Assembly: GCA_016209155.1 (NCBI GenBank)
Contig: JACQWU010000096.1
Span: forward strand, 1-5,745
DNA length: 5,745 nucleotides
Direction: 5' to 3'
Source: Candidatus Desantisiibacteriota bacterium
GTDB taxonomy: Bacteria; JACRDZ01
The first letter of the stretch is position 1. Each line of letters opens with the position of its first letter. The notes beneath the pieces were generated by a model. The model made no database searches and was not told the origin of the DNA. It saw nothing but the letters and a program-made list of their open reading frames with translations. Positions 1,467 through 5,493 of this stretch are shown piece by piece. The position numbers and the translations under genes were made by a program.

Positions 1467-1496
1467 GACATATAAAATTATTAGTATGGTGTGAAA

Positions 1497-2243
1497 ATGA
1501 CATTTAAAAATAAGACTGTTATCATAAGCGGGGCGTCAAGAGGTATAGGCAGATCAATAGCAATTGAATTAGCAGGTATCGGAGCTAATATAAGCTTTAA
1601 TTTTTTAAAAAATATTAAGGAGGCAAAGTCTTTAGAAAAAGAAATAAAAGAATTGGGGTCATGTGTTAAATCATATAAAGTAGATATTAAAGATTATTGT
1701 GCTGTTAAATTCTGGGCTGATAGTACAAAGGATCTGTTTGGCAATATTGATATTGTAATCAATAATGCTGGCATAATTAATGATAGTGCGCTTGCCTTGA
1801 TGGAACCGGGTGATTGGCATAATGTGCTAAGCACAAATTTAGACGGGACATTTAACCTTACAAGAGCGGCGATAATTAATTTAATAAAACAAAAAAGCGG
1901 AATTATAATAAATATTGCATCAGTAAGCGGAATTACCGGAATGCCGCGGCAGACAAATTATTCAGCATCCAAAGCCGGAATGATCGGATTTACTAAATCT
2001 CTTGCGCGCGAAGTAGCTCCATATAATATCAGAGTAAATGCAATTGCCCCCGGTTTCATAGAAACAGATATGCTTAAAATTTTAAAAGAAGAATATCTGA
2101 ATCATATGAGAAAACAAATACCTCTCAATAGACTGGGAAAAGCAGAAGAAATTGCAAAAGCAGTAAAATTTTTAATCAGTGATGACGCAAGCTATATTAC
2201 AGGTCAGACAATAGTAGTTGACGGTGGTTTAAGTATCGGTTGA
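1497..2243 (+). CDS. fabG: 3-oxoacyl-ACP reductase, FabG-type short-chain dehydrogenase
   Basis: Classical SDR of 248 residues, the usual FabG length. It should reduce the beta-keto group of ACP-bound chains with NAD(P)H in the cytoplasm. Visible motifs, numbered from the ATG at 1497: the Rossmann cofactor loop SGASRGIG (11-18), NNAG (89-92), the structural/catalytic Asn114, Ser142, and YSASK with Tyr155 and Lys159. Ser and Tyr are 13 residues apart and Tyr and Lys 4 apart, as in E. coli FabG. PGFIETDM follows, and the C-terminus VVDGGLSIG is typical. A GTG six bases upstream (1491) is in frame and would add two residues. I prefer the ATG because GGTG (1488-1491) sits 5 nt before it, while no Shine-Dalgarno site precedes the GTG. 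It is the first gene of the cluster. Its last 17 bases are repeated just before the next gene. It resembles housekeeping FabG, but its neighbours suggest a dedicated pathway. Confidence 0.93.
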   Translation: MTFKNKTVIISGASRGIGRSIAIELAGIGANISFNFLKNIKEAKSLEKEIKELGSCVKSYKVDIKDYCAVKFWADSTKDLFGNIDIVINNAGIINDSALALMEPGDWHNVLSTNLDGTFNLTRAAIINLIKQKSGIIINIASVSGITGMPRQTNYSASKAGMIGFTKSLAREVAPYNIRVNAIAPGFIETDMLKILKEEYLNHMRKQIPLNRLGKAEEIAKAVKFLISDDASYITGQTIVVDGGLSIG

Positions 2244-2307: not shown

Positions 2308-3453
2308 ATGAGAAAAAAAAGAATAGTTATAACCGGTGTAGGAATAATCGCTCCAAATGGAACAGGAAAAGAAGAATATTGGCAGGCTTTAAAAAATGGG
2401 AAGTCCGGAATTAAACCTATTACACGATTTGATACAGATGAATTTAAGTGTAAGCTGGGAGGTGAGATTGATAATTTCAATCCTGCGCATTTTTTAAGCG
2501 GTAAAGGGCTGAAAGATCTCGATAGAACAGCAAGGCTTTTATGCTCTGCCGCAAAGTGGAATGTTTCGGAATTTGAGAAAGGTGCGATAAATGACGGACC
2601 TCTTTTTACTAATGTGGCTCTTTTTCCGGGAACAGTTATAAATGCAGCTTCAAGTCAGGTTTCAATTCGTTTTAATATTCAGGGATTTAACACAACTATT
2701 TCAACTGGTTATAGCTCAAGTATTGATGCGATGAAATATGCAATATATTTTATAAGGTTAGGACGAATTAAAGCTGTGCTGGTAGGCGGAGTAGAAAGTT
2801 TTTCTCTTGCAAATTTTATTGGATTTTACAAACTCAATTTTTTAGCAGGGATAAAAGGTGAGGAATTATCCTGTCCTTTTGATAAAAGAAGAAATGGAAT
2901 AATTTTAAGCGAAGGCGCGGGAGTTTTAGTTGTGGAGGATGAGGAATATGCTGAAAAAAGAAAAGCAAATATTTATGCTGAAGTTAAAGATATAGGTAAT
3001 TGTTTTGATTCTTATAAAATTGGTAAATATAACCCGGAAGTAACAGGACTTAAAGAAAGCATAAAATTAGCAATAAAAAATTCCGAATTAGATATTAAAG
3101 ATATAGATTATATCAGTGCTTCAGCAAATTCTGTACCTATACAGGATAGACTTGAGACTAAAGCCATAAAAAATGTTTTTGGAAAATTTGCATATAATAT
3201 TCCTGTAAGCTCAATTAAGTCAATGATTGGAGAACCCTACAGCGCAGGAGGATTATTCCAGATTGCCGCAGCTATCGGAAGTATGAGCTATGGCTTTATC
3301 CCGCCAACAATAAATTACAAATTAAAAGATAAGGATTGCGATCTTGATTATGTAGAAAACAAATCAAGAATAACAAGAGTAAACAATGTATTAATTAATA
3401 ACTTTGGACCCGGAGGAAATAATGCGGCACTGATAATATCCAAATATATGTAG
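2308..3453 (+). CDS. Ketosynthase-like protein without catalytic residues (chain-length-factor-like), internally shortened
   Basis: A 381-residue thiolase-fold protein of the KAS I/II family, clearly paralogous to the ketosynthase at 4088-5299 (both start with R-[IV]-V-[IV]-T-G and share the GKSGI, FDT-EF and IPPTIN blocks). All three catalytic positions are changed: the active-site Cys is Tyr135 (STGYSSS), the first His is Ser272 (ISASANS), and the second His is Glu309 (KSMIGEP). The KSM Lys (304), the EGAG loop (202-205) and the C-terminal GGNN (369-372) remain. This is the pattern of KS-beta/chain-length-factor subunits, which pair with an active KS, so I infer heterodimer formation with the downstream KS. 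From LxRT (71) to the active-site position it is 28 residues shorter than the paralogue; the strand and loop matching IFIGTTMG are absent near residue 85. The start ATG has AGGT 4 nt upstream, in the duplicated fabG tail. The stop TAG lies inside a REP-like repeat. Confidence 0.88.
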   Translation: MRKKRIVITGVGIIAPNGTGKEEYWQALKNGKSGIKPITRFDTDEFKCKLGGEIDNFNPAHFLSGKGLKDLDRTARLLCSAAKWNVSEFEKGAINDGPLFTNVALFPGTVINAASSQVSIRFNIQGFNTTISTGYSSSIDAMKYAIYFIRLGRIKAVLVGGVESFSLANFIGFYKLNFLAGIKGEELSCPFDKRRNGIILSEGAGVLVVEDEEYAEKRKANIYAEVKDIGNCFDSYKIGKYNPEVTGLKESIKLAIKNSELDIKDIDYISASANSVPIQDRLETKAIKNVFGKFAYNIPVSSIKSMIGEPYSAGGLFQIAAAIGSMSYGFIPPTINYKLKDKDCDLDYVENKSRITRVNNVLINNFGPGGNNAALIISKYM

Positions 3454-3500
3454 TGCGAAATATGAGTTTCGATAAATGTAGTGCGAGGCTTCAGCCTTGC
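3449..3500 (+). repeat. Two tandem REP-like hairpin units sharing TGTAGTGCGA
   Basis: TGTAGTGCGA occurs at 3449-3458 and again at 3477-3486. Each copy leads into a small palindrome: CGAAA (3456-3460) pairs with TTTCG (3467-3471), and GCGAGGCT (3483-3490) pairs with AGCCTTGC (3493-3500) with one G-T wobble. The same head with different stems suggests two members of one dispersed family. The stop codon of the preceding gene (3451-3453) falls inside the first copy. No T-tract follows, so processing or mRNA-stability roles are as likely as termination. Confidence 0.65.
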
Positions 3501-3510
3501 TAATATTGAA

Positions 3511-3516
3511 GAGGAG
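3511..3516 (+). promoter_or_regulatory. Shine-Dalgarno site that fixes the ACP start
   Basis: GAGGAG at 3511-3516 lies 5 nt before the ATG at 3522. An in-frame GTG at 3516 overlaps the site itself and so cannot use it, which makes the ATG the start. Confidence 0.75.
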
Positions 3517-3521
3517 TGTAT

Positions 3522-3761
3522 ATGACAATTAGTTTTGAAGAAGAAGTTAAGCAACTGGTTTCAGAAATTATAGAAGTTCCAATTAAAGATTTAAAACCTG
3601 ATGCAGATTTGATCAATGATTTAGGAATAGATTCATTAAAAGCTATTGAAATTGTGGCGGCTATTGAAAAAAAATATCGTGTAATCATACCTGAAAAAGA
3701 TATCCCCAAATTAAGAAACCTTAATAAAATAATAGATTTTACTAAAAAACTTAAAAAATAG
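3522..3761 (+). CDS. Acyl carrier protein
   Basis: A 79-residue acidic four-helix carrier protein, the usual ACP length. Ser38 in LGIDSLKAIEI is the 4'-phosphopantetheine attachment site; a phosphopantetheinyl transferase encoded elsewhere must activate it. It would shuttle the growing acyl chain between the two ketosynthase-family proteins, the ketoreductase and the hotdog protein. The usual pre-motif acidic segment (DADLINDLG, 27-35) is present. The C-terminus is Lys-rich (TKKLKK), less acidic than in housekeeping AcpP. It carries LGIDSLK rather than the DSLD-type motif of E. coli AcpP, which together with its position between two KS-type genes suggests a pathway-specific ACP. The start is set by the GAGGAG site described separately; the next gene starts 15 nt after the stop. 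Confidence 0.93.
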   Translation: MTISFEEEVKQLVSEIIEVPIKDLKPDADLINDLGIDSLKAIEIVAAIEKKYRVIIPEKDIPKLRNLNKIIDFTKKLKK

Positions 3762-3776
3762 GTAAAAAGGGTTTTT

Positions 3777-4091
3777 ATGATTTTTAATAAGGAAGAAATT
3801 AAAACTATTTTGCCTCAAAGAGAGCCATTCCTTTTTATTGATGAAATAATTGAAATTAATGGCAAAAAAAAAAAAAAAAATAAACCCGAAATTGCTAAAA
3901 CTAATCCATATTATTATTTATGCAAAGTTAAATCGGAATTTTTAGTTCCTGTAATTCCCGGTAATAAACTTATTTTGGAAGCAAATATTGTTAAAATTAT
4001 TGATAGCGCCGGTATAGTTGATACATTTGCAAGGGTTGGTGATAAAACAGCAGCAAAAGCAACTCTGGAATTTGGAGTACGGAAAAAATGA
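3777..4091 (+). CDS. FabZ/FabA-like hotdog protein lacking the catalytic centre (probable internal deletion)
   Basis: A 104-residue protein against about 140-150 for FabZ. The N-terminus (residues 6-25, with ILPQREPFLFIDE) is the standard beginning of beta-hydroxyacyl-ACP dehydratases. The C-terminal half, from YYYLCKVKSEF through VPVIPGN-LILEA to AAKATLEFGVR, matches the usual C-terminal strands. Missing between them are some 40-45 residues that normally contain the GHFP catalytic His, the following PG(V/I) turn and the central hotdog helix with its Glu/Asp. The junction is a Lys tract (residues 30-34) encoded by a 17-A run at 3864-3880. As written it should not be an active dehydratase. It may be a decayed gene, an assembly collapse, or a subunit without catalysis. 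AAGGG (3767-3771) lies 5 nt before the ATG. Its stop overlaps the next start (ATGA, 4088-4091), indicating translational coupling. Confidence 0.75.
   Translation: MIFNKEEIKTILPQREPFLFIDEIIEINGKKKKKNKPEIAKTNPYYYLCKVKSEFLVPVIPGNKLILEANIVKIIDSAGIVDTFARVGDKTAAKATLEFGVRKK
3864..3880 (+). repeat. 17-base poly-A tract inside the hotdog gene
   Basis: Seventeen consecutive A bases encode five Lys codons plus the first two bases of an Asn codon. One extra A would create an immediate TAA stop at the following T; one fewer would read to a TAG about 20 codons on. The tract is prone to replication, transcription and sequencing slippage, and lies exactly where the protein loses its central domain. Confidence 0.95.
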
Positions 4092-5299
4092 AAAGACGCA
4101 GAGTAGTAGTTACAGGTTTAGGAGTGATTTCATCTGTTGGAATTGGAAAAGATGAATTCTGGAATGCAATAACAAATGGCAAATCGGGAATAAGTGAAGT
4201 TTCTTCATTTGATACCGGTGAATTTCGATGCCATTATGCAGGTGAAATAAAAAATTTTTATCCGGAAGAATTTATTGCAAAAAAAAAACTTCAATTTTTG
4301 GGCCGTACTTCACAACTGGCTATATCAGCCTCTTTTTTAGGTTTACAGGATGCCGGATTATCTTTAAAAATTTTTAATAAAGAGAAAGCCGGTATTTTTA
4401 TCGGGACAACAATGGGTGAAAGACCTCTTGAGGAATCTATTGATTCATGGGTAAAAGAAGGGGTTGATAAAATCAGCAAATCAAAAATTTTGCAGTCTTC
4501 AGCAAATAACATTTCCGCAAATATTGCTGATTATTTTAAATTTAGAGGGCCAAACTATATGATTCCCACAGCTTGCGCCGCAGGGAATTATGCAATTGGA
4601 TATGGCTTTGATATGGTGAGTAAAGGTGATTTAGATTATGCAATAACAGGTGGTACCGATGCATTTTCTAAAATAGCATTTGCCGGATTTCATCGTCTTT
4701 ATGCTATGGCTTCTCTTAAATGCCAGCCATTCGACAAAAATAGAAAAGGAATGATGGTTGGTGAAGGTGCAGGGATTCTTGTACTTGAATCATTAGAATC
4801 TGCTTTAAGGAGAAAATCAAAAATTTATGCGGAAGTATTAGGATATGGTCTTAGCTGTGATGCGCATCATATGACAGCTTCCCAGACAACCGGGATTGAA
4901 AAGGTAATACAAAAAGCTATTAAAGCAGCAGAAATAAAAAAAGAAGAAGTTGATTATATAAGCGCGCACGGAACCGGTACTCCAAGCAATGATAAAACCG
5001 AATGTACTGCTGTTAAAAATGTTTTTAAAGAAAAAACAAAATCTATTTTTATAAGTTCAATAAAATCCATGCTTGGACATACCATGGGCGCTGCCTCTGC
5101 AATTGAAGCATTAACATGCTGTCTTGTTGTTAAAGAAGATATTATTCCCCCAACAATAAACTTTGAAACTCCTGATCCAAATTGTGATATAAATTGTGTC
5201 CCTAATAAAGCTAAAAAAAGGAGAGTTAATATCGCATTAAATAATGCTTTTGCTTTTGGAGGGAATAATTCCTGCCTGGTAGTTAAAAAGTTTAATTGA
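4088..5299 (+). CDS. fabF: Beta-ketoacyl-ACP synthase, FabF-type, catalytic triad intact
   Basis: A 403-residue condensing enzyme of normal KAS II length. It should catalyse decarboxylative Claisen condensation of malonyl-ACP with an ACP- or enzyme-bound acyl chain in the cytoplasm. Visible residues are the nucleophile Cys163 in PTACAAGN (codon 4574-4576), His294 in SAHGTGTPSND, Lys326 and His331 in SSIKSMLGHTMGAAS, the EGAG loop (226-229), and the C-terminal gating FGGNN (390-394). The IGTTMG strand (105-110), absent from the upstream paralogue, is present. It is the last gene of the cluster; its ATG overlaps the stop of the hotdog gene, with GGAG at 4074-4077 and GGA at 4081-4083 as possible ribosome sites. 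Pairing with the dead paralogue at 2308-3453 would mirror KS-alpha/KS-beta systems. By motifs alone it could be an ordinary FabF; the neighbourhood argues for a specialised role. Confidence 0.93.
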   Translation: MKRRRVVVTGLGVISSVGIGKDEFWNAITNGKSGISEVSSFDTGEFRCHYAGEIKNFYPEEFIAKKKLQFLGRTSQLAISASFLGLQDAGLSLKIFNKEKAGIFIGTTMGERPLEESIDSWVKEGVDKISKSKILQSSANNISANIADYFKFRGPNYMIPTACAAGNYAIGYGFDMVSKGDLDYAITGGTDAFSKIAFAGFHRLYAMASLKCQPFDKNRKGMMVGEGAGILVLESLESALRRKSKIYAEVLGYGLSCDAHHMTASQTTGIEKVIQKAIKAAEIKKEEVDYISAHGTGTPSNDKTECTAVKNVFKEKTKSIFISSIKSMLGHTMGAASAIEALTCCLVVKEDIIPPTINFETPDPNCDINCVPNKAKKRRVNIALNNAFAFGGNNSCLVVKKFN

Positions 5300-5360: not shown

Positions 5361-5493
5361 AGGAGCTGTCCAAAAAGGTGTCATTCCGCACTCGATGCGG
5401 AATCCAGACTTTGGGACACCGGCTTAAATGCTGGATTTCTGTTTTAACAGAAATTACAAAAAAGCATTTTTAGCACCTTTTTAGACAGCCCCC
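5361..5493. mobile_element. MITE-like element with 20-bp terminal inverted repeats
   Basis: The left end AGGAGCTGTCCAAAAAGGTG (5361-5380) matches the reverse complement of the right end (5474-5493) at 17 of 20 positions. The ~133-bp body has no ORF but is packed with palindromes: GGTGTC/GACACC (5377-5382, 5415-5420), a perfect ATTCCGCA/TGCGGAAT stem (5383-5390, 5396-5403), AATCCAG/CTGGATT (5401-5407, 5431-5437) and ATTTCTGTT/AACAGAAAT (5435-5443, 5446-5454). This fits a non-autonomous miniature transposable element or an internally deleted insertion sequence whose transposase lies elsewhere. I see no clear target-site duplication, so the exact ends are uncertain by a few bases. Confidence 0.7.

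Follow-up and report, generated by a model that had tools for sequence, protein, structure and literature searches.

A ketosynthase and its catalytically dead paralogue in a ladderane-type operon core from a Candidatus Desantisiibacteriota metagenome-assembled genome

Contig JACQWU010000096.1 (G000:C344) of a Candidatus Desantisiibacteriota metagenome-assembled genome (MAG; GCA_016209155.1) was analysed over its entire length of 5745 bp, referred to here as the window. On its forward (+) strand lies an operon in the order FabG-KSbeta-ACP-FabZ-KSalpha, in which KSalpha (4088..5299, 403 residues) is an intact ketosynthase (KS), KSbeta (2308..3453, 381 residues) is a dead subunit with the KS fold and ACP is an acyl carrier protein. 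The window most probably holds the five-gene core of an acyl-chain synthase of the type associated with ladderane type II fatty acid synthesis (FASII), in which KSbeta would be a heterodimer partner resembling a chain length factor (CLF).

An earlier note on this DNA had proposed that KSbeta has lost the catalytic Cys, His and His of a KS while retaining the motifs of the fold, and a direct check of the positions confirmed this. KSbeta has Tyr135 (ISTGYSSSI), Ser272 (YISASANSV) and Glu309 (SMIGEPYS) opposite Cys163 (IPTACAAGN), His294 (YISAHGTGT) and His331 (SMLGHTMGA) of KSalpha. The KSM lysine is retained (Lys304 in KSbeta, Lys326 in KSalpha), as are EGAG (at 202 and 226 respectively) and GGNN (at 369 and 391). 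Aligned over 408 columns, the two proteins share 35% identity. Having no Cys-His-His triad, KSbeta is not a FabF (KAS II), and it scores 312 bits against the fabF model TIGR03150, under the cut-off of 494.

A species-genome collection was scanned with a KSbeta-specific stretch as query, giving 80 loci. The best matches were in Thermodesulfovibrionia/Nitrospirae (68-80% identity over the stretch), with further matches in Omnitrophota, Planctomycetota, the anammox genera Scalindua, Brocadia and Loosdrechtia, and others; over the BLAST alignment, the window KSbeta shares 64-73% identity with its nearest orthologues. A residue census covered 70 KS sequences in which Glu stands in place of the second His. 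Cys is absent from all of them, its position being taken by Phe (31), Tyr (21), Val (13), Glu (2), Asn, His or Met (1 each), and the first His is replaced by Ser, Asn, Cys, Ala, Gly or Thr. The Lys is kept in 70/70; the Glu is likewise present in 70/70, although one of the two scan patterns includes this Glu, so that its universality is partly selected by the sampling. Since all 70 Glu-bearing relatives keep the Lys and lack the Cys, the residue pattern of the window protein is not a matter of chance. Tyr-Ser-Lys-Glu, the pattern of the window, is the main one in Nitrospirota and also occurs in some Omnitrophota; Phe-Asn-Lys-Glu is common in Omnitrophota and Val-(Cys/Asn)-Lys-Glu is found in anammox bacteria.

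In a tree of 75 KS sequences, with branch support from the Shimodaira-Hasegawa-like approximate likelihood ratio test (SH-aLRT), the KSbeta proteins form one side of a single branch (97). This clade (97, inner 98) includes Scalindua, Brocadia, Loosdrechtia and the PDB chain 9s5h_C. The KSalpha proteins from the same loci form a separate group together with Iga11 of the ishigamide synthase (support 96), with branching broadly parallel to that of KSbeta. The KSbeta family is under purifying selection: the ratio of nonsynonymous to synonymous substitution rates (dN/dS), calculated for those pairs whose dS was usable, lies at 0.04-0.15 for KSbeta and 0.02-0.18 for the partner KSalpha. A family of pseudogenes is ruled out by this ratio and by the conservation of the family, and the scatter of substitutions and stops that the earlier note had named as a refutation did not occur. 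The dedicated clade that it had looked for was found, and an aromatic residue is conserved there in place of the Cys. Its suggestion of a distinct CLF type holds in that the clade is distinct and maintained, but the clade belongs to an already described lipid-synthesis module and is not a new type of CLF.

The nearest solved structures lie in the anammox lineage. The best PDB match of KSbeta is 9s5h_C (335 bits, next 227) and that of KSalpha is 9s5h_B (491 bits, next Iga11 at 340), while a profile of the KSbeta family scores 632 bits on 9s5h_C and 393 on the next match. Homologues of both KS proteins are present in entries 9s5h and 9s5i, eight chains each, and 9s5i also contains an ACP chain. 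The best matches of the window ACP include 7qv0_D and 9s5i_E, and those of the FabZ open reading frame (ORF) are 8ayc, 7qv0, 8ayi, 8ayb and 8ayd, with 7qv0 also holding an ACP. The tree places 9s5h_B within the Brocadiaceae KSalpha and 9s5h_C within the Brocadiaceae KSbeta, each beside the corresponding protein of Brocadia sp. WS118, and we therefore infer that the source of 9s5h is an anammox bacterium. The grouping of an active KS, a dead paralogue and an ACP in one operon, as first put forward from the sequence, is supported by the residues, the clade and the co-deposition of the homologous pair in 9s5h and 9s5i.

The anammox cluster kuste3603-3608 comprises ACP, FabZ, FabF, the non-canonical FabF Kuste3606, a CrtI-like protein and a radical S-adenosylmethionine (SAM) protein. 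Table 2 of Rattray et al. 2009 (PMC2649909) gives Val/Asn/Tyr/Gly/Lys/Glu for Kuste3606, a set identical to that of 9s5h_C, and the same source lists Phe163/Asn298/Asn300/Cys302/Lys328/Glu333 for the non-canonical FabB/F Kuste2805. The window KSbeta is of this type: it has neither the Cys nor either His, retains Lys328 and carries Glu in place of the second His. Where Kuste3606 has Val/Asn/Tyr/Gly it has Tyr/Ser/Asn/Val. Compared over the published residues only, it resembles Kuste2805 in having Asn300, Lys328 and Glu333 and an aromatic side chain where the Cys would be, but has Tyr instead of Phe and, at the first His, Ser instead of Asn. Non-canonical paralogues and related deltaproteobacterial clusters were already reported by Rattray et al. 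2009 (PMC2649909), whose passages on these paralogues do not interpret them as chain length factors. The window operon shares with kuste3603-3608 the homologous KSalpha/KSbeta pair, the ACP and FabZ, besides the clade, the Lys and the Glu. It differs in gene order and in its partners: neither a CrtI-like desaturase nor a B12 radical SAM gene is present on the window contig, and the genome, which is 79% complete, gave only weak 22-32% partial matches to them. A thioester reductase likewise has no convincing orthologue in the window or in this incomplete genome, and nothing in the window points to a ladderane as the product.

The order FabG-KSbeta-ACP-FabZ-KSalpha is also found in Nitrospirota loci L029, L031, L032, L034, L036, L037 and L092, where FabG orthologues 67-75% identical to that of the window occupy the same position. 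The order ACP-FabZ-KSalpha-KSbeta-CrtI-B12 radical SAM, which is that of kuste3603-3608 as tabulated (PMC4790861), is found in anammox loci L070, L073, L098 and L100. Relatives carry downstream additions: a thioester reductase, a CrtI-like desaturase or a third KS. An intact KS lies on the same strand within 4 kb in 53 of 68 KSbeta loci. In L107 (Brocadia carolinensis) the KS adjoining KSbeta is split in the assembly into two ORFs of 222 and 171 residues. In L030, L032, L033, L036, L040 and L092, and partly in L034 and L037, all Nitrospirota, the module adjoins rplM-rpsI-argC-argJ-like genes, often with an rpoD-like sigma factor nearby (names assigned by eye from the sequences), and this suggests old vertical inheritance of the module in those lineages.

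Other KS-CLF systems offer partial parallels. The ishigamide synthase Iga11-Iga12 (6kxd-6kxf), a highly reducing type II polyketide synthase (PKS), likewise combines a KS and a dead partner with their own ketoreductase (KR), dehydratase (DH) and ACP. The window KSalpha, with its triad intact, falls in the Iga11 group but carries Met where Iga11 has Asp113, and Iga12 was not among the best 60 matches of the KSbeta profile, no close kinship being seen. As in the actinorhodin-type aromatic systems (1tqy), a dead KS paralogue adjoins an active one and is accompanied by an ACP. Classic aromatic CLFs carry Gln at the Cys position, as the earlier note had stated and as was seen in a Streptomyces CLF control, whereas the window KSbeta has Tyr and Gln occurs in 0/70 of its relatives; on this residue, membership in the classical aromatic CLFs was rejected. 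The Tyr is therefore atypical against aromatic CLFs only, and within the KSbeta clade Phe or Tyr is the rule. The family profile scores only 212 bits on the aromatic CLF 1tqy_B. KSbeta is separate from the aromatic CLFs in the tree, where branches are long and a joint clade is not rejected (approximately unbiased test, p 0.30). Aromatic systems are not known to go through a complete FabG/FabZ cycle in each round. In aryl polyene synthesis the KS-CLF heterodimer ApeO-ApeC produces a polyene together with a dedicated KR and DH; ApeC of A. baumannii retains only one thiolase domain (PMC8358021), unlike intact KSbeta, which is full length.

From established KS-CLF biochemistry, the best reading of KSbeta is that it completes the dimer and tunnel of KSalpha. 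The five proteins would form the core of a highly reducing type II synthase in which KSalpha carries out the Claisen condensations. KSbeta, with a KS fold but neither nucleophile nor histidines, would most likely act only as an obligate heterodimer partner, completing the acyl tunnel and determining chain length in the manner of a chain length factor. FabG would reduce and FabZ dehydrate every new unit, and given such a cycle the product would probably be a polyene or otherwise unusual acyl chain built on the dedicated ACP.

It had been suggested that a Tyr at the bottom of the acyl channel could act as a chain-length gate. This is unlikely, because Tyr135 occupies the vestigial nucleophile site of KSbeta itself, at the N-terminus of its nucleophile-elbow helix. 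The usual chain-length gate of FabF is Ile108, and CLFs restrict chain length through residues at the dimer interface. The equivalent of Ile108 is a separate residue from Tyr135, and Tyr135 was rejected as the gate. The Ile108-equivalent position is Leu in 34, Phe in 16 and Tyr in 11 of 68 KSbeta proteins and Met, Ala, Leu or Asn in active KSs, while almost every KSbeta protein has Phe at the equivalents of FabF 117 (67/68) and 134 (68/68). These three positions are better gate candidates than Tyr135. The segment that carries the Ile108 equivalent is missing from the window KSbeta.

Several points weigh against a working synthase built around a KSalpha/KSbeta heterodimer. KSbeta and FabZ of the window would, as assembled, be damaged proteins. 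Heterologous expression of kuste3603-3608 in E. coli led to no new product that was detected (PMC4790861). Furthermore, at 15 of the 68 KSbeta loci the surrounding 4 kb contain no intact KS; contig ends account for about four of these and the remainder are mostly from Omnitrophota, some with KSbeta, FabG and FabZ and no nearby KSalpha. Among such KS-less Omnitrophota loci are L041, L057, L059, L064 and L065, with KSbeta mostly of the Phe-Asn-Lys-Glu pattern; in L041 and L057 FabG- and FabZ-family genes come after KSbeta.

The damage consists of two internal gaps. Alignment shows that a core segment of 29 residues is absent between K83 and W84 of KSbeta (junction at 2556..2557), and that the FabZ ORF (3777..4091; a partial match of 46 bits to TIGR01750) is without about 41 residues including the catalytic GHFPG...E; both segments are present in all intact relatives. 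A 17-A homopolymer within the FabZ ORF (3864..3880) lies exactly at the site of its gap. The structural model of the window KSbeta has a mean predicted local distance difference test score (pLDDT) of 86, falling below 50 at 85-112 directly after the junction, while that of the intact L029 KSbeta has a mean of 91 and folds the segment missing from the window into the end of a helix and a core strand. These gaps could mean that the operon is decaying in its host, with real in-frame deletions in KSbeta and FabZ and a non-working module. The loss of core or catalytic segments, in one case at a homopolymer, and the lack of the relatives' downstream partners on the contig and in what is assembled of the genome would agree with decay. 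However, the five genes have no stops or frameshifts, and identity to L029 over aligned columns is 78% for KSbeta, in line with 76% for KSalpha. In addition, rpoB of the same MAG (L119/L145, G000:C276) is broken by a frame-shifting internal deletion and a FabF gene (L142, G000:C124) has lost about 24 residues with a shift of frame. As intact relatives are without such gaps, and as a cell could hardly live with a broken rpoB, the gaps of KSbeta and FabZ are probably errors of assembly; truncation as a genuine feature was not the first choice, and decay is unlikely. KSbeta of a Nitrospirota MAG (L092:9158-10315) also has an in-frame gap of about 29 residues, but at another place, where it removes the first-His region; this is possibly an error of the same kind. 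Internal gaps in the host MAG should not be taken as biology.

Slightly less likely than decay is that KSbeta is a malonyl-ACP decarboxylase or a KS of altered chemistry, in which Glu309 and Lys304 replace the histidines to prime or modify chains. In favour of this, the invariance of Lys and Glu exceeds the need of a purely structural site, and some Omnitrophota copies have no neighbouring KSalpha. Against this, the count of Glu is in part a product of the scan pattern, the first-His position is highly variable, the Cys position is bulky in most members, and the homologous pair was deposited as two KS chains in equal number. That the two proteins are ordinary FASII paralogues, forming independent homodimers within one operon, is very improbable: both score well on FabF models, but KSbeta has none of the catalytic residues of an independent KS and yet belongs to a family under purifying selection, and homologues of both share PDB entries.

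Of the remaining genes, FabG (1491..2243) encodes a 3-oxoacyl-ACP reductase of the short-chain dehydrogenase/reductase family (TIGR01830, NCBIfam, 292 bits; Tyr157/Lys161 motif) and the ACP (3516..3761; Pfam PF00550) has its phosphopantetheine Ser40 in DSL. FabZ is a 3-hydroxyacyl-ACP dehydratase, and its ORF overlaps that of KSalpha by four bases. Upstream is a 5'-open alpha/beta hydrolase (1-1218, + strand; PGAP1/thioesterase-like, GHGRGG), not seen adjoining the module in relatives. Downstream, at 5362-5492, is a 131-bp element resembling a miniature inverted-repeat transposable element, with 19-nt inverted ends (GGAGCTGTCCAAAAAGGTG / CACCTTTTTAGACAGCCCC). Short intergenic repeats lie within the operon at 3481-3497 and about 2249-2276; one, GTGCGAGGCTTCAGCCT, occurs at ten sites on ten contigs of the MAG (nine besides the window). 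The MAG is 3.08 Mb in size, and the window fits it because its GC content (33%) is within the range of other sampled contigs and the intergenic repeat recurs on nine other contigs. Three genomes of the same phylum gave only FabF-level matches, at about 40% or less, so that the module may have come from a relative in Nitrospirota, by lateral transfer or through mis-binning. Large modular PKS genes, with open frames of up to 6620 residues, are present on contigs G000:C290 and C43 of the MAG.

The window pair is therefore a ladderane-FASII-type KSalpha/KSbeta module, of a kind already known, without desaturase or radical SAM partners. A wider and more tentative suggestion is that a large and mostly anaerobic lineage beyond anammox (Thermodesulfovibrionia, Omnitrophota and others) might make an uncharacterised polyene or long-chain lipid by means of a CLF-like subunit whose origin is separate from that of the aromatic CLFs. 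In this subunit an aromatic residue would plug the Cys position and Lys and Glu would be conserved as a pair; in some lineages a thioester reductase would release the product. The biosynthesis of anammox ladderanes is unsolved and its pathway poorly understood. Many bacteria outside the anammox group possess the KSalpha/KSbeta/ACP/FabZ core, which in them often lacks accompanying desaturase and radical SAM genes; such cores separate the shared steps of chain building from those that form the ladder and are simpler modules to express.

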